Of a stretch of 64,000 nucleotides of DNA, positions 1,669 to 36,100 are shown one piece after another. Source of the stretch: Massilia rubra (lineage in GTDB: Bacteria > Pseudomonadota > Gammaproteobacteria > Burkholderiales > Burkholderiaceae_D); assembly GCF_011682065.1 (NCBI RefSeq), contig NZ_VUYU01000030.1:1-64000 (forward strand), read 5' to 3'. Position 1 is the stretch's first letter. Every line of letters begins with the position of its first letter. A program made the position numbers and the translations under genes. The notes beneath the pieces were generated by a model. The model made no database searches, had not been told where the DNA came from, and saw only the letters and a list, made by a program, of their open reading frames with translations.

Positions 1669-2249
1669 TTCAGCTTCTCTACCAGTGCGCGCAAAGCCTG
1701 GCCGCGGTGCGACAGCGCGTTTTTTTCAAGCGGCGTCAGTTCGGCGGTGCACTTGCCCAGGGACGGAATCCAGAAGTGCGGATCGTAGCCAAAACCGCCG
1801 GCGCCGCGCGCTTCGGCCACGATTTCGCCGTTCCAGCGACCGTCGGCGATGACCGGCTGCGGATCGTCCGCATGGCGCACATACACCAGCACGCAGTAGT
1901 AATAGGCCGATTTGTCGGCGTGAGCGGCCAGGTCGGCGATGAGTTTCTGGTTGTTGCGCGCATCCGACTTCGGCTCGCCGGCAAAGCGCGCCGACCATAC
2001 GCCGGGCGCGCCGCCCAGGGCATTGAGGCACACGCCCGAGTCGTCGGCCAGCGCCGGCAAACCGGTCAGGCGCGAAGCGTGGCGGGCTTTTTCGAGCGCG
2101 TTTTCCACAAAGGTGGCGAACGGCTCCTCGGCTTCGGGCACGTCGAATTCGCCCTGCGCGTGCAGGGTGAAGCCTACGGGTGCGAGGATTTCGCCAAACT
2201 CCTTGAGTTTGCCGGCGTTATTGGAAGCGAGGATGAGGCGTTGGGTCAT
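1665..2249 (-). CDS. rdgB: RdgB/HAM1 XTP/dITP pyrophosphatase
   Basis: A 194-residue house-cleaning enzyme that hydrolyses dITP, XTP and ITP to the monophosphates and so keeps deaminated purines out of nucleic acid. The N-terminal LASNNAGKLKEF motif, the central ALADDSGVCLNALGG motif and the GGFGYDPHFWIP motif are all intact, and the length is normal for the family. It is first in a two-gene minus-strand operon with hemW. Elsewhere in betaproteobacteria rph lies directly upstream; here rph is 5.2 kb away, with the DUF3616, SDR and LRR block in between. Confidence 0.95.
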   Translation of the reverse strand: MTQRLILASNNAGKLKEFGEILAPVGFTLHAQGEFDVPEAEEPFATFVENALEKARHASRLTGLPALADDSGVCLNALGGAPGVWSARFAGEPKSDARNNQKLIADLAAHADKSAYYYCVLVYVRHADDPQPVIADGRWNGEIVAEARGAGGFGYDPHFWIPSLGKCTAELTPLEKNALSHRGQALRALVEKLK

Positions 2250-2422
2250 AATTGTCTGGTCTGGCCGAGGATGAATGCAAGTGCGTATTTTAGCCTGTGG
2301 CGCAGGCGCCGTCGCTTCAGCAGCTTTTAAGGTTATTGCACGATAAACGCTGTACTATACCGGCATCCGATTTTGACCCTCCCGGTTTGCCGGCGGCGGC
2401 AGTGCCGTGCGCCAGCGAATCC

Positions 2423-3487
2423 ATGAATAACTCCTTGAACAATGCAGGTGCGGCCGTGCTCGAAATCGAAAAAGTCGAAGTGAGCTACGGCTCCGACCCT
2501 TCGGGGCTGGTGTGGGGCTATCTGTTCGGCGTCACGCCGGAAGCGCTGGCCGTCGATTCGGCGGCGGCGCTGGCCTGGATGCGCGACCACGCGGCCAACA
2601 ATCCGGCGCAGTTCATCTGGCTGCACTTTAACCTGTCCAACGCGGCCAGCGAAAAGTGGCTGACCACGCACGCCAACCTGGCCGAGGAATTCTACGAAAC
2701 GCTGCACACCGGCTCGCGCTCGACCCGCATCGAACTGGCCGAAGACACCCTGATCGCGGTGGTCAACGATGTGCTGCACAATTTTTCGTTCGAAGAATCC
2801 GACATTTCAACCCTGTGGGTGAGCGTGGCGCGCAATGTCGTGGTCAGCGCGCGCCGCAAGCCCTTGCAGTCGATCGAGCGCGTGCGCCAGGCGGTGCGCC
2901 AGGGCGAGCCGGTACGCTCCTCGGTCGAACTGCTGATCCACCTGCTGCGCGACCAGGCCGACGTGCTGGTGAAAATCGTGCGCGACGCGGTGGAACGGGT
3001 TGACGACATCGAAGACAAGCTGCTGGCCGACCGCCCCACCGCCAGGCGTGAAGACCTGGGAGCCATGCGGCGCGTGCTGGTGCGCCTGCAACGGCTGCTG
3101 GCGCCCGAGCCGGCCGCGCTCTTTCGCCTGCTGCAACGCCCGCCCTCGTGGATGGCCGACCTGGACACCCAGGAGCTGCGCGAAGCGACCGAGGAATTCT
3201 CGGTGGTGCTGAGCGACATGTCGTCGCTGCAGGAACGCATCAAGCTGCTGCAGGAAGAAATCGCCGCGCGCGTGAGCGAAGAAACCGGCCGCAGCCTGTT
3301 TATCCTGACCATCGTGACGGTGCTGGCGCTGCCGATCAATATCATCGCCGGCATGCTGGGCATGAACGTGGGCGGTATTCCGCTGTCGCACCACCCGGCC
3401 GGTTTCTGGATTATCGCCGGGATCATCGCGACATTTACGGTGGTGGCGGGCTGGCTGGTCACGCGTGCGGCGCGACGCCTGCGTTAG
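2423..3487 (+). CDS. zntB: ZntB/CorA-family divalent cation transporter
   Basis: A 354-residue CorA-superfamily protein. The long soluble N-terminal part ends in a helical region, followed by two C-terminal membrane segments (about residues 290-315 and 325-347). The pore signature GMN is followed by VGGIP, the form typical of ZntB zinc transporters rather than CorA magnesium channels. The C-terminus (RAARRLR) is basic and cytoplasmic, as in the family. The frame is open back to a GTG at 2297, but the ATG at 2423 gives the usual N-terminus. It diverges from rdgB-hemW. Zinc is the likely substrate, proton-coupled and probably inward, by homology only. Confidence 0.85.
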   Translation: MNNSLNNAGAAVLEIEKVEVSYGSDPSGLVWGYLFGVTPEALAVDSAAALAWMRDHAANNPAQFIWLHFNLSNAASEKWLTTHANLAEEFYETLHTGSRSTRIELAEDTLIAVVNDVLHNFSFEESDISTLWVSVARNVVVSARRKPLQSIERVRQAVRQGEPVRSSVELLIHLLRDQADVLVKIVRDAVERVDDIEDKLLADRPTARREDLGAMRRVLVRLQRLLAPEPAALFRLLQRPPSWMADLDTQELREATEEFSVVLSDMSSLQERIKLLQEEIAARVSEETGRSLFILTIVTVLALPINIIAGMLGMNVGGIPLSHHPAGFWIIAGIIATFTVVAGWLVTRAARRLR

Positions 3488-3527
3488 CCACTATCATGGT
3501 GTTTTAATCAACACACCGGAGGACGCC

Positions 3528-4472
3528 ATGAGCAAACACGAAGCGGCCAGCGCCACCCTGATCGCGGGCGCGCTGCACGCGACATTGGAAGAGCATTTTA
3601 CCTATCGCGGCATGTGCGACGCCTCGGCCGCCGCCGCGCTCGGGGAAGACCTGTTCGTGGTCGCCAACGACGAACGCAACCAGCTCAAGATTTACCGGCG
3701 AGGCGTGGCCGATGCGGTGCAGGTACTCGACCTGTCGGACTTTTTGGGCACCAAGAAGAACAAGGAATCGGACCTCGAAGGCGCGGCCACCATCGGCGAT
3801 CGGATTTACTGGATTACCTCGCATGGCCGCAACAAGAAGGGCGAGGTGCAGGAGCGCCGCTTCCGCTTTTTTGCGACCGAGGCGGGCAAGGGCAAAGGCA
3901 AGGCGCTTCTGGAACCGGTCGGCCAGGCCTACAGCGGCCTGCTGGACGACATGATCGCCGCTGAACAATTGAAGAAGTATCCGCTTGCGCAAGCGGCCGG
4001 ATTGACGCCGGAGGCCGATGGCGCTTTCAACATCGAAGGGCTGGCGGCCACGCCGGAAGGCACGCTGTTGATCGGCTTGCGCAATCCGGCGCCCGAGGGC
4101 AAGGCGCTGGTGGTGCATTTGCTCAATCCTGAAAAGGTGGTCGAGGGCGAGCGGGCCGAGCTTGGCGAGGCGTTCGAACTCGATCTGGGCGGGCTGGCGA
4201 TTCGCAGCATGGAGCTGGTGGGCCTGGCGTACATGATCGTGGCCGGGCCGCCGGCAGATCATGGCGAGTTTGCGCTGTATCGCTGGTCGGGCAAAAGCGG
4301 AGACGCCCCGGAGCAGCTGGTGCACGAGGATTTTGACGATGTGCGGCCGGAAGCGCTGTTTGCCATTCCAGGAACGCGCAAGGTGCAGATCTTGAGCGAT
4401 GACGGCGGGCCGCATGTGAAGGAGATTGCGGAGGAAGAGCAGACGTTCCGGAGCATCACGGTCGTTCTCTAG
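3528..4472 (+). CDS. DUF3616 domain protein
   Basis: A 314-residue cytoplasmic protein without signal peptide or membrane segment. It matches the DUF3616 family as I recall it: GMCDASAAAAL near the start, FVVANDERNQLKIYR, SDLEGAATIGDRIYWITSHGR and FNIEGLAATPEGTLLIGLRNP, which read like blades of a beta-propeller (my inference). Function is not known. The ATG at 3528 is preceded by a good ribosome site (GGAGGA), 40 nt after zntB. The last 17 codons (E-I-A-E-E-E-Q ... V-V-L-stop) recur as a diverged copy at 7306-7358, on the far side of the SDR/LRR block, so this gene end appears to mark the left edge of an insertion. Confidence 0.8.
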   Translation: MSKHEAASATLIAGALHATLEEHFTYRGMCDASAAAALGEDLFVVANDERNQLKIYRRGVADAVQVLDLSDFLGTKKNKESDLEGAATIGDRIYWITSHGRNKKGEVQERRFRFFATEAGKGKGKALLEPVGQAYSGLLDDMIAAEQLKKYPLAQAAGLTPEADGAFNIEGLAATPEGTLLIGLRNPAPEGKALVVHLLNPEKVVEGERAELGEAFELDLGGLAIRSMELVGLAYMIVAGPPADHGEFALYRWSGKSGDAPEQLVHEDFDDVRPEALFAIPGTRKVQILSDDGGPHVKEIAEEEQTFRSITVVL

Positions 4473-4540
4473 CGCGCTCCGGACCGGTGCAATGCCCGGC
4501 CCAGCCGCCGCAATTGCCGAAAATGCTACAATGTCAGCGG

Positions 4541-4611
4541 AAAGCCGTGGCGTAATGGAAGCGCATTTGCATGGCATGCAAAAGGTGCCGGTTCGAGCCC
4601 GGTCGGCTTTC
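4541..4611 (+). tRNA. tRNA-Ala(GGC)-like gene, atypical acceptor
   Basis: A cloverleaf can be drawn: acceptor AAAGCCG/CGGCTTT, T8, D-arm with A14, G18G19 and A21, anticodon stem TTTGC/GCAAA with loop ATGGCAT (T33, anticodon GGC), 4-nt variable loop, and T-arm GCCGG/CCGGT with loop TTCGAGC. Odd points: the acceptor lacks the G3:U70 pair that alanyl-tRNA synthetase normally requires, pairing can extend two further bases (GG at 4539-4540 with CC at 4611-4612), position 73 would be C rather than A, and no CCA is encoded. It could be an orphan tRNA, a mobile-element tRNA or a decaying copy. Confidence 0.5.
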
Positions 4612-4646
4612 CCCGCGATGCTTCGATGGCCGTTTCATCGGCGCCC

Positions 4647-4714
4647 GAGCGGATCTGTCACGCAGCACCTCACCTTGCAAGGTGGCGGGCGCCGATTCAA
4701 ATCCAGCCCGCTCT
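4647..4714 (+). other. Degenerate tRNA-like hairpin element
   Basis: Thirty-five bases after the tRNA-Ala-like gene lies a second element with partial tRNA features: outer arms GAGCGG/CCGCTC, a perfect 14-nt palindrome centred on TGCA (4671-4684) where an anticodon arm would be, and GATTCAAATCC, which resembles a T-loop. No regular 7-nt anticodon loop can be formed, the D-loop GG is missing and the T-stem does not pair. It may be a decayed tRNA or chance similarity. Confidence 0.2.
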
Positions 4715-4781
4715 TTTCCGGTTTGAGGCATGGTGCGAACGCAAGCTGTCCCCAAGGATCAATTTTTCTACAGACTTTGCG

Positions 4782-6095
4782 ATGACTTTCACAAACGAGG
4801 ACCTTGCCACCACGCTGCGTGTGCTGCAAGCCATCGCGGACCAGCCTTCCCGGATGAACGCGCACCCGCGTTTCAAGGCGCTGATTGCCAAAATACAAAA
4901 AACGGCCAAGCGCGAGCTGCGCCAGGCGCGCACAGAACTGTCCACGGCGCAGTTTCACCAAGCCCGCCTGCAAACCGGCCTGGTGCAGGCACAGCAAGCA
5001 ACACCAGCGCTGTTGCCGCCGCCGCAGGACGGCGGCAGCACCTTGCGTTCCCAGCGCTGCTATGTCTGCAAGCAGACCTATCACGAACTGCACCACTTTT
5101 ATCACCTGCTGTGCCCCGTATGCGCAGCGAAAAACTGGGCCAAGCGCGAACAACGCGCCGACCTGGGCGGCTATGTGGCGCTGGTGACAGGCGGGCGCAT
5201 CAAAATCGGCTTCGAAACGGCATTGCGCTTGCTGCGCGACGGCGCCCGCGTGATCGTTACCACGCGTTTCCCGCGCGACGCCGAGCGGCGCTTCCTGTGC
5301 GAACCGGATGCCAGCGCATGGCGCGACCGGCTGACGCTGCACGCACTTGACCTGCGCAATATCGCGTCGGTCGAGGCCTTGGCCGACACCCTTTGCCACG
5401 ACCTGCCCCACCTCGACATCGTCATCAACAACGCGGCGCAGACCATCAAGCGCCCGCGCGAATTCTACGCCGCCTTGATGGCCGCCGAACCTACCCCGTG
5501 GCTGCTGGAGGCAAGCAGCCAGTACCTTGGACAGCTGCCGGGCTACGAAAACTACTTCTTACGCAACGAGCAGGACAGCTACGGGCAGGCGCTCGACAAG
5601 CGTCCCAGCAATTCGTGGTCGCAGCGGCTGCACGATGTGTCCACGCTGGAACTGGTGGAAGTGCAAGTGGTCAATGCGATCGCGCCCTTCCTGCTGACCT
5701 CGCGCCTTCGTCCCGCGCTGCTGCGCTCGCCTAACCAGAGGCGCTTCGTGATCCAGGCGTCGGCCATGGAAGGGCAGTTCAACCGGCAGGACAAGACCGC
5801 TTTCCATCCACATACCAACATGGCCAAGGCCGCATTGAACATGCTGGTGCGCACCAGCGCCCAGGACTGGGCGCGCGACGGCATCTACATGAACGCCGTG
5901 GACACGGGCTGGATTACCGACGAAAAGCCCTACCCCCAGGCCGAGCGGATGCGGCAGGAACAGCACTTCTACACGCCGCTCGATGTCATCGACGGCATGG
6001 CGCGCCTGATCGATCCGATCATGCGCGGCATCAACGAGCCGGACACGCCGCTGTTCGGCCATTTTCTCAAGGATTACGAACCCCATGCCTGGTGA
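4782..6095 (+). CDS. Zinc-finger SDR-like protein without catalytic Tyr
   Basis: A 437-residue protein. Residues 1-75 are helical and charged. A CxxC...CxxC zinc-binding-like knuckle follows (C93, C96, C111, C114) with four His among the residues between. Residues 130-437 are a short-chain dehydrogenase-type Rossmann domain: T136-G-G-R-I-K-I-G143 cofactor loop, VINNAAQ near 216-219, S327 in VIQASAMEG, and K349. At the catalytic Tyr position of the YxxxK motif stands Thr345 (T-N-M-A-K). The enzyme may therefore use NAD(P) in an altered reaction or be a non-catalytic sensor; both are inferences. The start at 4782 is chosen because earlier in-frame codons run through the tRNA-like element. The stop overlaps the LRR gene by 11 nt. 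Confidence 0.75.
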   Translation: MTFTNEDLATTLRVLQAIADQPSRMNAHPRFKALIAKIQKTAKRELRQARTELSTAQFHQARLQTGLVQAQQATPALLPPPQDGGSTLRSQRCYVCKQTYHELHHFYHLLCPVCAAKNWAKREQRADLGGYVALVTGGRIKIGFETALRLLRDGARVIVTTRFPRDAERRFLCEPDASAWRDRLTLHALDLRNIASVEALADTLCHDLPHLDIVINNAAQTIKRPREFYAALMAAEPTPWLLEASSQYLGQLPGYENYFLRNEQDSYGQALDKRPSNSWSQRLHDVSTLELVEVQVVNAIAPFLLTSRLRPALLRSPNQRRFVIQASAMEGQFNRQDKTAFHPHTNMAKAALNMLVRTSAQDWARDGIYMNAVDTGWITDEKPYPQAERMRQEQHFYTPLDVIDGMARLIDPIMRGINEPDTPLFGHFLKDYEPHAW

Positions 6096-7290
6096 ACCGT
6101 CGCTGCCGCCGCGCCAGCCCATCGCCGCTCCGGATGCACAGGACGCCAGCGCCGTGCAATGCCCGGTCCATCGCGTCGAGATCACGCCGTGCGACGCAGC
6201 CGAGCTGGCGCCCTTGCTGGCGTACCTGAGCGCCAATCAGGCGCTGCAAGGCAGCCAGTACTTTCCCCGTGGCGCCGTGCTGGACGATGGCCGGCTGGAC
6301 CTCTGCAAGCAAAGCCTGGGCAGCGACAACTGCCTGCGGATCGCGCAGGCGCTGCAGGGCAACACCCAGGTCCGCAGCCTCATGCTGGGCACCGACGCGA
6401 TTGGCGATACCGGTGCGCACGCGGTGGCCCAGCTGCTGGACAAGAACGCCCATCTGCAGGTGCTCTACCTGGGCTGCAACAACATTGGGCCCCTCGGAGC
6501 GCGCCGGCTTGGCGCAGCGCTGGCGCGGAACGTGCAACTCACCGGTCTCTGGTTGAAACGCAATCCGCTGGGACCGGAGGGCGCTGCCAGCATCGCCCAG
6601 ATGCTGCGCAGCAATCGGCACCTGCGCGTGCTCGACCTCGTCAATACCGATCTGCGTACTGCGGGCCTGGACGCCATCGTCGACGCCTTGTGCACCGATA
6701 ACCGCACCATGCACACCCTATACCTGAGCGGCAACGGCCTGGGACCGCCCGCCGCTGCAGCCTTGTCCCGGCTGCTGCGCGAAGCGCCGCACGTCACCGC
6801 GCTCTACCTGAGCGTGAATCGCCTGGGGGACGAAGGCGCGGCCATGCTGGCCGAAGCGCTCCATGCGAACCGCAACGTGCAGACACTGGAACTGGCCAGC
6901 AACGGCATCGGCCCGGAGGGCGCCGGGGCCTTGTTCCAGGCGCTGCGGCGCCATCCCGCCATCGAATGCCTCAACCTGGGCTATGCCCCTTCTACCAGGG
7001 TGCTGGGCGCGTCGGCCAATCGCATCGGCGATGAAGGAGTCGCGTACGCAATGGACATGCTGTCGGAATCGCGTACCTTGCGCAGCCTGGATTTAACGCG
7101 CAATGGCGTGACGGGCCGAGGGCTGGGAGCTCTGGACAGCGCCCTGTCCGGCAATCGGCATCTCGGCCGCCTGCTGGTCGATGGCAGCCTGCCCGACGTG
7201 CTGGCCGAGCGCCTGGCGCGCAACCGCGTGGAGCATGGCGATCTTCCGGTTCCACCGGACCGGGCGTTGATCAGGAGTGTCTACCGCTGA
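6085..7290 (+). CDS. Leucine-rich-repeat protein (NLR/ribonuclease-inhibitor-like repeats)
   Basis: A 401-residue protein with no signal peptide or membrane helix, so probably cytoplasmic. After about 65 residues there is a solenoid of roughly ten 28-residue repeats of the form L-x-x-L-x-L-x-x-N-x-(I/L)-G-x-x-G-A-x-x-(L/I)-A-x-x-L (for example around LYLGCNNIGPLGA and LELASNGIGPEGA). This long repeat type resembles ribonuclease inhibitor and eukaryotic NLRC3-like proteins more than bacterial effector LRRs. It starts inside the SDR gene (11-nt overlap, weak AAGGA 10 nt upstream), so the two proteins are probably made together and may bind each other. No catalytic domain is visible. Function unknown. 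Confidence 0.82.
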   Translation: MPGEPSLPPRQPIAAPDAQDASAVQCPVHRVEITPCDAAELAPLLAYLSANQALQGSQYFPRGAVLDDGRLDLCKQSLGSDNCLRIAQALQGNTQVRSLMLGTDAIGDTGAHAVAQLLDKNAHLQVLYLGCNNIGPLGARRLGAALARNVQLTGLWLKRNPLGPEGAASIAQMLRSNRHLRVLDLVNTDLRTAGLDAIVDALCTDNRTMHTLYLSGNGLGPPAAAALSRLLREAPHVTALYLSVNRLGDEGAAMLAEALHANRNVQTLELASNGIGPEGAGALFQALRRHPAIECLNLGYAPSTRVLGASANRIGDEGVAYAMDMLSESRTLRSLDLTRNGVTGRGLGALDSALSGNRHLGRLLVDGSLPDVLAERLARNRVEHGDLPVPPDRALIRSVYR

Positions 7291-7305
7291 AGGGCGGTTG
7301 GGGCA

Positions 7306-7358
7306 GGAGATGGCGGAGGAAGAGCAGATGTTCAGGAGTATTACGGTCGTGCTATAAC
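7306..7358 (+). pseudogene. Remnant copy of the DUF3616 gene 3' end
   Basis: These 53 bp match 4421-4473 at 45 positions. Read in frame they give E-M-A-E-E-E-Q-M-F-R-S-I-T-V-V-L-stop against E-I-A-E-E-E-Q-T-F-R-S-I-T-V-V-L-stop in the intact gene: five codon differences are silent, two change a residue, and the stop codon is TAA instead of TAG. That pattern means the copy diverged while part of a working gene, so it is the tail of a homologue rather than a recent local duplication. It lies 15 nt after the LRR stop and directly before a REP palindrome. Confidence 0.8.
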
Positions 7359-7446
7359 GTCGTTCCCGCGAAGGCGGGAACCCAAGTTAGTCGTTGAGCC
7401 AGCAGCTCCAGCACGAACTTGGGTTCCCGCCTTCGCGGGAACGACG
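7358..7446. repeat. REP-type double palindrome
   Basis: A perfect 31-bp inverted repeat (7358-7388 with 7416-7446) separated by 27 nt. Each arm contains its own short hairpin (TTCCCGC GAAG GCGGGAA). This is the usual build of a REP/BIME element. It lies between the convergent LRR and rph genes and could also end transcription or shield mRNA ends. Confidence 0.85.
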
Positions 7447-7489
7447 GCTAAAAGAACGTAGGGTCAAGGATGCGCTACCGGGCCGCAGC

Positions 7490-8218
7490 TTACAAGCCGA
7501 GGCTTTTCTTCTGCAGCGCGATGATGTCCGCAATCCCGGCCTGCGCCAGATCGAGCAAACGATTCATCCCGGCGCGATCAAATGCGGCGCCTTCTGCCGT
7601 GCCCTGCACTTCGATGAAGTGCCCGGCTTCGGTCATCACCACGTTCATATCGGTGTCGCAGCCCGAATCTTCCACGTAATCGAGGTCCAGCACCGGCATG
7701 CCCTTGTACACGCCGACCGAAATGGCCGCCACGAAGCTCTTCACCGGCACCTTCGGAATCGCGCCGCTGGCCACCAGTTTGCTGAACGCGTCATACGCCG
7801 CCACCATGGCGCCGGTAATCGAGGCCGTGCGCGTGCCGCCATCGGCCTGGATCACGTCGCAATCGAGGTTCAGGGTACGCTCGCCGAACGCTTCCAGGTC
7901 GAACGCCGCGCGCAGCGAGCGGCCGATCAGGCGCTGGATCTCCTGCGTGCGCCCGCTTTGCTTGCCGCGCGCCGCTTCCCGGTCCATGCGCGTGTGCGTC
8001 GAACGCGGCAGCATGCCGTATTCGGCCGTCAGCCAGCCCTGCCCTTTGCCCTTCAAAAAGCCCGGCACCTTCTCTTCGATGCTGGCCGTGCAAATGACCT
8101 TGGTGTCGCCGCACTCGATCAAGACCGATCCTTCGGCATGCTTGGTGTACTGGCGCGTGAGCACGATGTCGCGCAGCTGGTCGACGGCGCGGCCGCTCGG
8201 ACGTGATTCAAATGTCAT
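7490..8218 (-). CDS. rph: Ribonuclease PH
   Basis: A 242-residue phosphorolytic 3' exonuclease that trims tRNA 3' ends. The N-terminus ([12 protein letters not shown]), the [12 protein letters not shown] segment, the [16 protein letters not shown] segment and [18 protein letters not shown] carry the conserved phosphate- and RNA-binding residues, and the length is normal. It is last in a minus-strand operon after the protein kinase and the PP2C phosphatase, 23 nt from the phosphatase. Confidence 0.96.
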
Positions 8219-8241
8219 GTATTACCTTGTAAAAGCAGGCC

Positions 8242-9192
8242 TTACTTAAGTACCTGGGATGATTTTTCGATGGCGTCGCGGATCTCGGCGATCGCTTTTT
8301 CGATTTCGTCGTCGTTGAACGCGTCGATTTCGAGCGGCTGTTCCGGCTCCGGGGCGCTCAGGATCGTGGTGCTGACCAGGTTCTCGGGCAGCATCATGGT
8401 CGAAATGACCGCCGCGCTGCCGTCCGTGTTCACGCCCGCCGTTTCCACTTCGGGCGATCCTTGCCACATGATCGCCAGCGCGGTCGTGTTGTCGCAGGTC
8501 TCGCCGCCGATGGTAATCGCGGTGCTGATCATGTCGGGAATGGCGCGCACGATGGTCTGGGTCGAGAGGCGATGGACAATCTCTTCGTCCGGCAGCATCG
8601 ACCACAAGCCGTCGGAGCACAGCATGACCACGTCGCCCGTCAACAGGCTGACCTGGCGCGACACTTCGATCTTCGGCAGCGAAGAAGCGCCGATGCAGTT
8701 ATACAGCTTGTTGCGGTCCGGGTGGGTCGCGCGTTCGGCCGGATCGGCCAGGCCCTGGGCGATCAGGTGCTCGATGTGCGAATGGTCGCGCGTGCGGCCC
8801 AAAATCTGCCCGCGCCGCAGCCAGTACAGGCGCGAGTCGCCGCAGTGGGCCCAGATCGCGGTGTTGTGCTGGATCAGGCAAGCCACCACCGTGGTGCGCG
8901 GCGTGTCGGGCATGTTGTTGGCGATGCGGTAGCGGTGGATTTCATCGTGCGCTTCGAGGAAAGCCTCTTCCAGGAAGCGTTCGGGTTTGCGCACATACGG
9001 CGTGGCGTGCTGCTGGAACATGCTCGACATGGTCTGCAGCGTGATGGCCGCGGCCATTTCGCCGCGCAGGTGGCCGCCCATGCCGTCCGCCAGGACCAGC
9101 AGCAGCGCATCGCGCGTGAAGCTGTATCCCATCCGGTCCTGGTTGACCTTGCGGCCGCCGAGCTGGCTTTCCTGATAAACGGAAAATTGCAT
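8242..9192 (-). CDS. PP2C-family Ser/Thr protein phosphatase
   Basis: A 316-residue PPM phosphatase. Metal-binding motifs are intact: NQDRMG near residue 18, LADGMGGH near 36, CGDSRLYW near 117 and CSDGLW near 194. The domain ends near residue 245, followed by an acidic low-complexity tail (NDDEIEKAIAEIRDAIEK). No membrane segment. It lies 15 nt after a Ser/Thr kinase gene on the same strand, so the two probably form an opposing kinase/phosphatase pair acting on shared targets. Those targets are not evident here. Confidence 0.92.
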   Translation of the reverse strand: MQFSVYQESQLGGRKVNQDRMGYSFTRDALLLVLADGMGGHLRGEMAAAITLQTMSSMFQQHATPYVRKPERFLEEAFLEAHDEIHRYRIANNMPDTPRTTVVACLIQHNTAIWAHCGDSRLYWLRRGQILGRTRDHSHIEHLIAQGLADPAERATHPDRNKLYNCIGASSLPKIEVSRQVSLLTGDVVMLCSDGLWSMLPDEEIVHRLSTQTIVRAIPDMISTAITIGGETCDNTTALAIMWQGSPEVETAGVNTDGSAAVISTMMLPENLVSTTILSAPEPEQPLEIDAFNDDEIEKAIAEIRDAIEKSSQVLK

Positions 9193-9207
9193 AGTAATCT
9201 TTCTGGA

Positions 9208-10203
9208 TCAGGTGTTTTTATCGTTGACTTTTTTGCGGCCGAAACTACCGAGGCGGTCGACCAGGCCGCGTACCTGGCCGCCGATCTTTTCCAAACCGCG
9301 CGGCGCTTCCGGCTTCTTGGGCGGCGGCAGCGCCAGTTCCTTTTGCAGCGCGAACAGGCTTTGCGGACGCGCCAGCGGGTCCATGTCGAGGCAGTTCTTG
9401 ACCATGCTGATCAGGGCCGGCGAAAAGCTGCCTTCGAGCTTGGCGTAATAGCCAGGCATCTTGTCTTCGGTCTTGCGCTGGTCGGCCGGCTGCGGCGGCG
9501 CGCCGGCCATGCAGGCGAAGATGGTCGCGCCGATGCTGTAAATATCCGACCACGGTCCCAGCGCCGCCGTTTTCGAGTACAGGTCCGGCGGGGCGAAGCC
9601 CGGCGTGTACATCGGCGTCAGTTTCGGGATGTCGGCGTTGATGGTCTGGCGCGCGGCGCCGAAGTCGAGCAAAATCGGCGAGCCGTCGGTGCGCAGGTAG
9701 ATATTGGCCGGTTTCAGGTCGAGGTGCAGCAGCTTGTTGGCGTGCACTTCGCGCAGGCCGCCGCACACGCCCAGGAAAATCTGGCGGATGAACGCTTCCG
9801 ACAGGCGGCTGCCCTTGCTGCCGAGGCGGGCGATGTGTTCCTGCAGCGAGTGGCCCGATTCGTAGCCCATCACCATGTACACGGTGTCGTTGGCGCGGAA
9901 AAAGTTCAGCACGCGCACCACGTTCGGGTGCGAGATCAGCGCGAGCGCCCTTCCCTCCTCGAAAAAGCACTTCAGGCCGATGCGGAACACGGGCAGATTG
10001 GGCGGTGAAATCACCGGAACGAGCTCGCCGGGTTGCCGCAAAGCGAGGGAGCTCGGCAGGTACTCTTTAATGGCGACCGCGTTCCCCTCGGCGTCATAAG
10101 CGAGATATACAATACTGAACCCACCGGACGCAATTTTCTTTACAATGCGATATCCGGCAATTTCAAGTCCATCGGGCAGGGGAGCGTTATTTTGTGCAGC
10201 CAT
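9208..10203 (-). CDS. Hanks-type Ser/Thr protein kinase
   Basis: A 331-residue soluble kinase. The Gly-loop (IASGGFSIVY), the ATP-anchoring Lys in VAIKEYLP, the catalytic loop HLDLKPANIYL, the DFG motif in LLDFGAARQ and the APPD/D-I-Y-S-I-G activation-segment region are all present, so the kinase should be active. Unlike PknB it has no membrane segment or PASTA domains; after the kinase domain there are only about 60 residues, ending in a basic tail. The ATG at 10203 is chosen over a GTG eight codons earlier because an AAGGAA site precedes it. First gene of the kinase/PP2C/rph operon; diverges from yicC. Confidence 0.92.
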   Translation of the reverse strand: MAAQNNAPLPDGLEIAGYRIVKKIASGGFSIVYLAYDAEGNAVAIKEYLPSSLALRQPGELVPVISPPNLPVFRIGLKCFFEEGRALALISHPNVVRVLNFFRANDTVYMVMGYESGHSLQEHIARLGSKGSRLSEAFIRQIFLGVCGGLREVHANKLLHLDLKPANIYLRTDGSPILLDFGAARQTINADIPKLTPMYTPGFAPPDLYSKTAALGPWSDIYSIGATIFACMAGAPPQPADQRKTEDKMPGYYAKLEGSFSPALISMVKNCLDMDPLARPQSLFALQKELALPPPKKPEAPRGLEKIGGQVRGLVDRLGSFGRKKVNDKNT

Positions 10204-33188: not shown

Positions 33189-36100
33189 TTAGTACAGCAT
33201 CGGCGAAGCGTCCACCAGCGCGCCGCCGGCCAGCAGCGTCTGCATGCCGCTGCCGAAGCTCGCGCTGCCGATGATGGTCAGGGCCGCGTTCATGCCCAGC
33301 GCCGCCAGGTTGCCATCCTGCGCGTAGTGGTAGGCCAGGTCGCCGCCGATGGCGGCCGTGTCGCTGCCGCCGCGCGAGAACGCCGCCAGCGAGGCCGCCA
33401 TGTTCCAGCTGGTCAAGGACGGGTTGGCCAGGCGCGCCTGGTTGAACTGGCCGACCAGGCCGGCAAAGTCGAACAGCTCGACCTTGTTGTCGTGGATCGC
33501 ACTGGCCGAACCGGGCTGGTAATCGACGCCGCCGGCGGTGACCACCTGCAGCGTCGAGACGCTGGCGCCGCTGTTGCCGTACCAGTTCTTGAAGGTGATC
33601 TGGTCGCCCGCGCCCATTGTCAGGACCAGCTCGGCGCCGACCTTGTTCAGGGCCAGGCCGGCGAACGCGATGCCGTGGCCCAGCGAGAGCGTGTCGTCGG
33701 TGGCGCCGACGGCGCTCAGGACATCCTGGCCATCGCCCCGGTTGAAGACGTGCACGTCGGCCCCCTGCTGGCCATTGATGCTGTCGTTGCCGGCGCCACC
33801 GATGAACAGTTCCCCGGCAGCGCCCCCGACCAGCGCATCGGCGCCGCTGCCGCCGCTCAACAGGTTGGCCTCGGTCCCGTTGTCGGTCAGCGTATCGTTA
33901 CCGGCGCCGCCCAGCAGCAGGTCGTAGCCGGCCAGGCCGTTCATGGCGTTCGCCGCGCTATTGCCGACGATCAGGTTGTTACTTGTATTGCCGGTGCCGT
34001 TGATGGACGCCGTGCCCGTCAGGGTCAACACTTCGATGTGGACGGCCAAGGTCCTGTTAACCAAGCTGAACAGCTGATCGAGACCGCCGTTCGCCATGTC
34101 GGTCGTCACGTCGCTGGTGCTGTCGACGTAATACGTGTCGTCGCCGGCGCCGCCGATCATGACGTCGCCGCCGGCGCCGCCATTGAGCACGTTGGCGCCG
34201 GCATTCCCGCTGAGCGTGTTGTTGAGCGTGTTGCCGGTGGCGTCGATGGGAGCGCTGCCGGTCAGGATCAGGTGTTCCACGTTCGCGGGCAGGCTGTAGC
34301 TCACGCTGCTGTAGATGCTGTCGGTGCCCGCGCCGGCGCCTTCGCTCACCACGTCGAGCGCCTGGTCGACCAGGTAGCTGTCGTTGCCCGCGCCGCCGAC
34401 CAGGGTGTCGGCGCCGAGGCCGCCGTCAAGCGTGTCGTCCCCGCCCAGTCCGTACAAGGTGTCCTTGTTCGACTTGCCGGTGAGGGTGTCGGCGGCGGCG
34501 CTGCCGGTCAGGGTCACGCTCGCGCCCTGGCCGATGTTCAGGGCCAGGGTGGCCGTCGCCGCCAGGCCGCCGGCGTCGGTGTAGCGCACGGCGACGCTGG
34601 CGCCGGCCTCACTGAAGACCGGGGTGCCCGAAAACGTGCGGGTGGCGGCATCGAACGCCAGCCATGCCGGCAGTTGCGCGGCGCTGTAGACGCCGACGTC
34701 GCCCGCATCCGGGTCGGTAAAGCTTGCCGCCGGCAGGCTGTAGCTGAACGGTATGCCTTCGGTCACCGCCAAGGGCGCGAGCGCGCCGGCCAGCACCGGC
34801 GCGCGGTTGGTGTTGGCGACGATCACAGCGAAGGGGTGCGACGTCGTCAGGCCGCCCAGGTCGGTGGCCGTGACCTTCAGCGCATAGGTTCCGCTGTCGT
34901 CGTAGCCGGCGCTGCCGCTCAGGTAGTTGTTGCGCACGTCGTAAGCCATCCATGATGGCAGTGCGCTGCCGTCGGCGCGCGTGATGCTCAGGCTCACGGC
35001 GTCGAACTGGTTCGGATCGGTAAAGGCGGCCGGACGCAGGTAAAAATTGCCGCCCTCGGCCAGCGTGGCGTTGGCGCCGCCGCCGGCATACACCGGCGCC
35101 AGGTTCTGCTCGATGGTCATGCGCGCGCTGTCGCTGATGCGCAAGCCTTGCTTGTCGGTGGCGGTGATGACCAGCTCGTACGTGCCGACGTCGGCGCTGG
35201 CCGGGAAACCGGTAAAGCTGCCACCCAAGGTCGGATGCGGCACGAAGTGCAGCCATGACGGCAGCGGCGCATTGCCGGCCAGCGAGGCCGACACGGTCAG
35301 CACATCGCCGCTGTCGGGGTCGGAAAACATGCGCGCGCCGAGCGTGAGGCCGAAAATGTGCCCGGACACCGCGCTAAAGTCGGGCAAGCCCTTGGTCAGC
35401 ACCGGCGCGCGGTTGACGTCGAGCACCTCGATGCCAAACTCGCTCGATGTCGTCAAGCCGCCCCGGTCGGTCGCGCTGGCCTTGAGCTGGTAGCTGCCGC
35501 TGTCCTGGAAGCCGGGCGTGCCGGTGATCTTGCCGCTGGCCGCATCGTAGGCCATCCATGCCGGCGCGGCGCTGCCGTCGGCGCGCGTGAGCACGACGGC
35601 CAGCGTATCGTTCGGGTTAGGGTCGGCAAACACCGGCGCCGGCAGCGAAAAGGCCGTCCCTTCGGCCACGCTGGCGCCGGCGCTGGCCGCCACCACCACC
35701 GGCGCCACGTTCGGCCCGTTGACGGTCAGGCGGAAAATGTCGCTGGCCGACTGCGCGCTGCGGTCGGTCGCGACCACTTTTACGTCGAACACGCCCATGT
35801 CGGCCAGGCCCGGCGTGCCGCTGAAGGTGCGGCTGGCGGCGTCGAAGCGCAGCCACGCCGGCAGTTCGGCGCCGTCGGCGCGCAGCGCCGTGTAGCTCAG
35901 CACGTCGCCCGCGTCGGGGTCGAAAAAGTGGCTGGCCGACAGCTGCAGCGTGAACCCGATGTCGGCGCTGGCAGCGGCGTCGGACAGCGGCATGGTGAGC
36001 ACCGGTGCGCGCTCGCTCAACTGGGCGATGGTCTTGATGCTGCCGTCGGCAAACTCGACCCAGCTGACACCGGCGCCCTGGTTGAGCAAGGTGACCTGGC

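Follow-up and report, generated by a model that had tools for sequence, protein, structure and literature searches.

A probable mobile cassette of unusual tRNA genes with SDR and LRR protein genes in Massilia rubra and in distant phyla

Bacterial tRNA-Sec combines an 8-bp acceptor stem with a 5-bp T stem. Allo-tRNAs, bacterial tRNAs of 8/4 and 9/3 geometry, were reportedly described by Mukai in 2017. Here we describe tRNA genes of 8/5 geometry that stand upstream of a gene for a zinc-ribbon short-chain dehydrogenase/reductase (SDR), usually together with a gene for a leucine-rich repeat (LRR) protein. They were met between a DUF3616 gene and rph in a 64,000-nt stretch of Massilia rubra DNA (contig NZ_VUYU01000030.1, positions 1 to 64,000; 'the window'). 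The anatomy and the mobility of this module, judged by sequence comparison, are very probable.

Allo-tRNAs resemble the cassette units in being bacterial, unusual in acceptor build and highly varied in anticodon, and no linked SDR or LRR gene is mentioned in the available part of that source (PMC7609411). Their acceptor branch of 8/4 or 9/3 has 12 bp, whereas the cassette units have 8 + 5 = 13 bp, a branch common to them and tRNA-Sec. The dehydrogenase activity of SDR5C1 is dispensable in human mitochondrial RNase P, where this SDR acts beside tRNA and so offers a precedent for an SDR scaffold; it differs in lacking a Zn ribbon and partner RNA genes, and alone it shows no detectable RNA binding (PMC10941002, in the portion available). 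Bacterial operons of polynucleotide kinase and Thg1, predicted to repair RNA 5′ ends, contain the same gene pair as genomes carrying the cassette, and the accessible text of PMC2904730 mentions no SDR, LRR or tRNA-like gene in them. Substrates of bacterial Thg1-like proteins were still to be identified according to a 2019 review (PMC6471195, accessible part). The Rsr/Y RNA/RtcBA repair operon likewise has a tRNA-like RNA adjoining RNA repair genes, but its proteins are others, and its Y RNA has one tRNA-like domain and no variable-arm array as far as the extract of PMC7790460 goes. For the tRNA-SDR-LRR set itself, no description was found in the open-licence literature, a search that does not show its absence from print.

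The tRNA-SDR-LRR module

The cassette genes of the window are listed below; R1 is a model built on a MAFFT alignment of 31 units, with the structure taken from the window's unit, and G111 is a relative of the same genus.

4527..4532, plus strand: −10 box TACAAT, 7 nt 5′ of unit position 1 (4540), the putative start site
4539..4612, plus strand: cassette tRNA unit with anticodon triplet GGC (ARAGORN; Rfam RF00005, 57.7 bits; R1, 80.2 bits)
4647..4714, plus strand: probable decayed second tRNA unit (R1, 11.5 bits; 9.6 bits at the corresponding position of G111)
4782..6095, plus strand: Zn-ribbon SDR protein, 437 aa (PF00106, PF13561; SDR fold in the predicted structure)
6085..7290, plus strand: LRR protein, 401 aa, overlapping the SDR gene end (PF13516, E 1.5e-33)

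An earlier note, made from the letters of this DNA, had named a tRNA-like gene, a tRNA-like hairpin and an SDR/LRR gene pair here. ARAGORN, Rfam and Pfam bear out the gene and the pair. As for the hairpin at 4647-4714, something tRNA-related does lie there, but its score is weak and we read it as probably a decayed second cassette unit. On sequence inspection, this remnant is missing in another relative of the genus, G146.

When a genome collection was scanned for relatives of the SDR, the best 80 of 593 were taken. ARAGORN was applied to each of the 80 and to loci from other searches, and called tRNA genes directly upstream of some of these SDRs. With R1, 100 sources yielded 46 matches at an E-value of 1 or lower. 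Of these, 39 are cassette units that precede an SDR on the same strand, 8 being outside the 31-unit training set. The others were five matches taken as ordinary tRNAs (L063, L117, L093, L098 and L065) and two weak ones. The Rfam tRNA model, which is independent of these units, recovered 30 of the 32 units of 13 loci, without any further match in them. Altogether the 39 units occupy 19 SDR loci from several phyla, with 1-6 units per locus:

Window's genus: window, G111, G146
Second genus of the family: L153-L156, carrying 3-4 units apiece at a different site, which follows a regulator gene
Cyanobacteriota: L039, L040
Armatimonadota: L041
Parabeggiatoa: L043
SAR324: L044
Actinomycetota: L051, L059, L078
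Deinococcus plasmid: L121
Further loci: L042, L140, L141

An LRR gene is present in 15 of the 19 carrier loci. In an SDR tree of 104 rows, a quick tree with long branches whose 'no unit' calls rest on ARAGORN and R1, 15 rows have tRNA and LRR, 4 tRNA alone, 1 LRR alone, 1 LRR with the upstream side unknown, and 81 neither, with 2 unknown. No cassette unit was found in a sister clade of 67 rows (65 without one, 2 unknown).

The SDR is rare. It was found in 2/145 and 7/392 genomes of the family, in 4/399 of the order (3 of those without tRNA found), in 1/398 of a phylum sample, namely the window's own genome, in 9/291 of the phylum of Tychonema and in 4/296 of the phylum of Herbidospora, where each search had its own cut-off and the genome samples overlap. 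Phage origin was rejected, as 50,697 phage records gave no SDR match at E 1e-25. Plasmid origin was rejected too; 4 of 72,556 plasmid records matched, and of the two examined, the Deinococcus one has a cassette tRNA and the Tsukamurella one does not. In a viral collection, the single-protein query had no match and the alignment query matched one contig, L145. Its SDR and LRR, at the contig end, are 54% and 45% identical to the window's.

All 104 SDR rows, in both clades, have CxxC...CxxC, and in 103 of them TNxAK (TNMAK in the window) replaces the catalytic YxxxK. The Rossmann glycine motif TGGR.KIG is invariant in 24 aligned sequences, and the predicted structure (mean predicted local distance difference test score, pLDDT, 78.7) matches SDRs. 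The stretch preceding the ribbon is basic, with a mean net charge of +6.4 in cassette rows versus +4.2 in others. PDB matches of the LRR protein include ribonuclease inhibitors (E 4e-27), LRRC34, NLRP and RanGAP chains, the best being a chain labelled tubulin alpha-3; the link to ribonuclease inhibitors is weak because this repeat class is broad.

Incidentally, locus L042 has four units, then two paralogous open reading frames (ORFs) of 315 and 321 aa, then unit-unit-SDR-LRR (2235-4804), so that 4 of its 6 units sit 2.4-2.8 kb upstream, ahead of the two other ORFs. These have no Pfam match and no relative in the other loci compared, and could be a further component.

Anatomy of the tRNA units

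The units have an 8-bp acceptor stem and a 5-bp T stem; in the window's unit, the acceptor stem is 8 bp in the model frame and 9 bp counting 4539:4612, with a T stem of 5 bp. Acceptor cells are 98.8% paired and all 8 pairs vary on both sides. In the R1 frame, all 8 acceptor positions are paired in 35 of the 39 units. The D helix is 97.6% paired, the T helix 100% (31 units) and the anticodon helix about 71%. ARAGORN, given 39 units, called 31 and read an 8-bp acceptor in 24 of them and a 7-bp one in the other 7, its reading of E. coli control tRNAs being 7 bp in 40/40. At the Rfam gathering score, the units match RF00005 alone and give no tRNA-Sec match. In Oxalobacteraceae units, the −10 box ends 7 nt before position 1 in 17/17 (14 TATAAT, 3 TACAAT), and transcription may therefore begin at the 5′ end of the tRNA itself.

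Units within one array have a common body and a divergent anticodon arm. The three Massilia-type units carry triplets GGC, TGC and GCC, the rest of the 17-nt arm being identical. Paralogues in the second genus show 0.43-0.53 differences per column in the arm versus 0.10-0.22 in the body. Between species pairs of that genus, the arm has changed at 1/66 and 1/48 sites, the body at 12/228 and 6/171, and the spacers at 114/298 and 26/236. Because paralogues differ in the arm and species pairs keep each arm, the arms seem to be maintained, contrary to drift.

Under our criterion, 9 of the 39 units misfit a 5-7-5 anticodon arm at the offsets tried. The other 30 have standard arms with 13 different triplets, and none has the TCA triplet, another difference from tRNA-Sec. 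Position 33 is T in 18 of them, C in 7 and A in 5, leaving 12/30 without U33, and position 37 is A in 28. Many cassette tRNAs may not decode.

Kinase-Thg1 partners and possible functions

Thg1 (PF04446) was found in 14/19 carrier records, including 7/7 from Oxalobacteraceae. For comparison, 19 non-carriers of the family were hand-picked, 13 of the window's genus and 6 others, and the Fisher value for carriers versus non-carriers is 0.0008, which overstates certainty because the genomes are related. In the second genus, Thg1 occurs in 4/4 carriers versus 0/3 non-carriers; among 14 control genomes there was one match, in an archaeon. A kinase gene adjoins Thg1 in 16/17 loci (3 of them in non-carriers), and also in L158. 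The kinase-Thg1 pair partners the cassette in trans, and once in cis, as the gene row of L158 is two units, SDR, a small ORF with weak NTF2-like scores, AAA_33 kinase and Thg1. L158 and L159, both without LRR, have a large divergent gene just 5′ of the units (L158 769-1980, minus strand; L159 8469-10328, plus strand), which encodes a HEAT-repeat protein in L158 and has no Pfam match in L159.

Sequence comparison thus establishes the module, the constant body with variable arms, the unit-less sister clade and the co-occurrence with kinase-Thg1. A sporadic mobile set with a constant body, kept arms, a probable scaffold, an LRR protein and a 5′-end repair pair is, in our opinion, best read as a bait or sensor complex. 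We tentatively propose that the units are arrays of non-translational tRNAs, bound by the SDR through one body, whose maintained arms could serve as anticodon baits or sensors in tRNA-cleavage conflicts with kinase-Thg1 repair, and that the units could be natural substrates of bacterial Thg1-like proteins. The SDR would hold the common body as a scaffold, and the different arms would be bait for, or sensors of, anticodon-cutting ribonucleases. The LRR protein, of ribonuclease-inhibitor type, would act on the nuclease, and kinase and Thg1 would rebuild the 5′ ends of cassette RNAs. In this way, the cassette may protect tRNAs from attack. Our confidence in the explanation as a whole, cassette and bait or sensor function together, falls a little short of an even balance, and the mechanism taken by itself is possible rather than likely.

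Several observations weigh against the proposal. Normal loops with U33 occur in 18/39 units, which could decode. Loss of the SDR tyrosine is common to the tRNA-less clade, 4/19 carrier loci are without LRR, and L046 has LRR and no tRNA; the four SDR loci near the cassette branch (L038, L045, L046 and L047) remained without a unit when the filters were switched off. In the tRNA-less clade, the SDR of L098 is closely preceded by a tRNA-Pro of ordinary appearance, which was left uncounted because its acceptor is 7 bp long and its CCA is encoded. Thg1 is missing from 5/19 carriers (G906, G909, G911, G1735 and the Deinococcus plasmid, the last judged on the plasmid record alone) and present in 3/19 non-carriers, all close relatives in the same clade. 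Near trans-encoded Thg1, the 17 Thg1 loci gave no convincing cassette unit, with one match of 18.5 bits. PADLOC has no family for SDR, LRR, Thg1 or kinase. The idea that the arms copy the cognate cellular arms was rejected, as a best-arm test was at chance (2.8/24 versus 2.1 when shuffled); here E. coli stood in for the hosts and 24 of the 39 units were used, 9 being non-standard and 6 having no cognate in the set of 27 arms. Arm similarity was 8.1/14 matches to the cognate E. coli arm versus 5.8 to others.

Other functions can be considered. The SDR and LRR proteins could bind these RNAs in a complex that serves, for instance, regulation or tRNA processing and is not involved in any nuclease conflict. 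This is rather unlikely; recurrent linkage agrees with it, as does the precedent of SDR5C1 in tRNA processing (PMC10941002, part available), although a sporadic, mobile distribution is, as a general argument, commoner for conflict genes.

We regard it as unlikely that the units are suppressor or mistranslating tRNAs, one synthetase reading the body and charging all of them alike so as to place one amino acid at many codons, as proposed for allo-tRNAs. Their constant body and the variety of triplets would be expected then, and allo-tRNAs with varied anticodons function in E. coli (PMC7609411, available text). On the other hand, 21/39 units are without a standard arm or U33, the 13-bp branch is that of tRNA-Sec and not the 12 bp of allo-tRNAs, and SDR, LRR and kinase-Thg1 would be left without a role.

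More doubtful still are carrier tRNAs for off-ribosome chemistry, which would deliver an amino acid to the SDR or a product and leave the anticodon free to vary. A redox-type NAD(P)-binding protein gene does lie directly 3′ of tRNA genes in 19 loci, but its catalytic Tyr is missing and no biosynthetic partner recurs. Free change would also not predict that the arms are the best-kept part between species pairs.

If the bait or sensor proposal is true, some tRNA genes form a class in which the anticodon arm is conserved for a purpose other than codon reading, a large unstudied SDR family gains an RNA partner, and bacterial Thg1-like proteins gain candidate substrates. Caution is needed in genome annotation, where programs score cassette genes as tRNA-Ala, -Gly, -Ser and so on.

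The DUF3616-rph site

The window's cassette is flanked by these features:

3528..4472, plus strand: DUF3616 gene, the putative integration target (PF12275, E 6e-15), adjoining rph in four empty relatives too
4421..4473, plus strand: proximal gene tail, read as element-borne (tail comparison, randomisation)
7306..7358, plus strand: distal gene tail, read as the native DUF3616 end (45/53; nearest to G149 and to the G146 distal copy)
7490..8218, minus strand: rph, right flank of the site (PF01138, PF03725; present in 16/17 genus genomes)

That the last 53 bp of the DUF3616 gene recur beyond the block had been noticed in the earlier note, and the repeat stands up to control. The copies match at 45/53 bases, the 8 changes giving two residue changes in frame (I to M and T to M), and a 6-kb stretch randomised 60 times under an order-1 Markov model gave best matches of 26.6 on average and no higher than 29. 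This pair is the longest two-copy direct repeat within 2500-9500.

The genome of the window has 7.57 Mb in 118 contigs, and its SDR is 96% identical to a protein labelled Massilia violaceinigra; the genus names used here are deduced from labels of this kind on matching proteins. The SDR is far from general in the genus, being found at E 1e-25 in just 3/17 genomes, all at the DUF3616-rph site. All 15 further rph loci of the genus were compared, that of G146 as two pieces. The seven closest genomes have the gene order hemW-rdgB-corA-DUF3616-rph, with three sites filled (window, G111, G146) and four empty (G145, G148, G149, G138), where the rph end comes directly after DUF3616. These filled and empty sites agree with the integrated island that had been suggested. 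A companion claim, that the block separates rdgB-hemW from rph, fails, as corA and DUF3616 lie between them with or without the block. The other 9 genus genomes have no SDR; DUF3616 is beside rph in three (G052, G075, G151) and was not detected in six.

The distal tail is complete in 2/3 carriers, the window and G146. In G111, its first 14-20 nt are left before a deletion reaching rph, so the expectation that a tail copy accompanies the block holds there for a remnant. The G146 assembly (contig C55; L024 distal end, L023) breaks just 3′ of the distal tail, probably at a repeat.

In the final 51 coding nt, comparison with empty G149 gives 4 and 6 differences for the two distal copies, which have 5 between them; the three proximal tails have 9-12 differences from G149 and 6-7 among themselves. 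Since the distal copies are nearest to G149 and each other and the proximal tails form a separate set, the proximal tail probably came with the element, as the note had supposed, and the distal tail is probably native. The picture is not a clean one, for the tail of empty G145 has 11-16 differences from each of the copies, and 8 sites separate the two copies within the window. When the DUF3616 gene was compared in blocks, the last block had the largest excess of carrier-empty over carrier-carrier distance; the whole gene does not cluster carriers. In a tree of hemW, rdgB, corA, rph and PP2C, empty G149 is nested among carriers as sister to G146, and the shortest history of the site needs a single gain and a single loss. 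Recombination of one tail with the other would account for the loss in G149.

The comparison supports a mobile cassette inserted in the DUF3616 3′ end, with its own tail copy carried along and the native tail displaced to the far side. That the distal copy is instead what is left of a second DUF3616 gene deleted to its end, in an old, vertical block, is very improbable, because DUF3616 is single-copy in the four empties and in three further genus loci that have it and the distal tail is of native type, although that copy keeps the protein sequence but for two residues.

Between the tails there are solely tRNA, SDR and LRR genes, with no integrase or recombinase among them, as had been noted. 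The note's alternatives were decay or movement by recombination; decay is disfavored since the same cargo set recurs in distant phyla. With 15/19 carrier loci given and E up to 0.05, flanking direct repeats were absent from 10/15 loci and matched at the window, L022, L043, L059 and L078, those of L022, L059 and L078 having just 14-18 nt; the four second-genus carriers have none. In L043 (Parabeggiatoa), a perfect 21-nt direct repeat at 4433 and 6577 flanks the unit-SDR set.

A long palindrome (CGTCGTTCCCGCG...) lies 3′ of the distal tail at 7358-7446. It seems older than the island because similar palindromes occur 3′ of DUF3616 in empty relatives G145 and G138. Elsewhere in the window, ARAGORN called a G+C-rich tRNA-Leu with anticodon AAG at 35789-35884, not reported by R1 and probably a false call.

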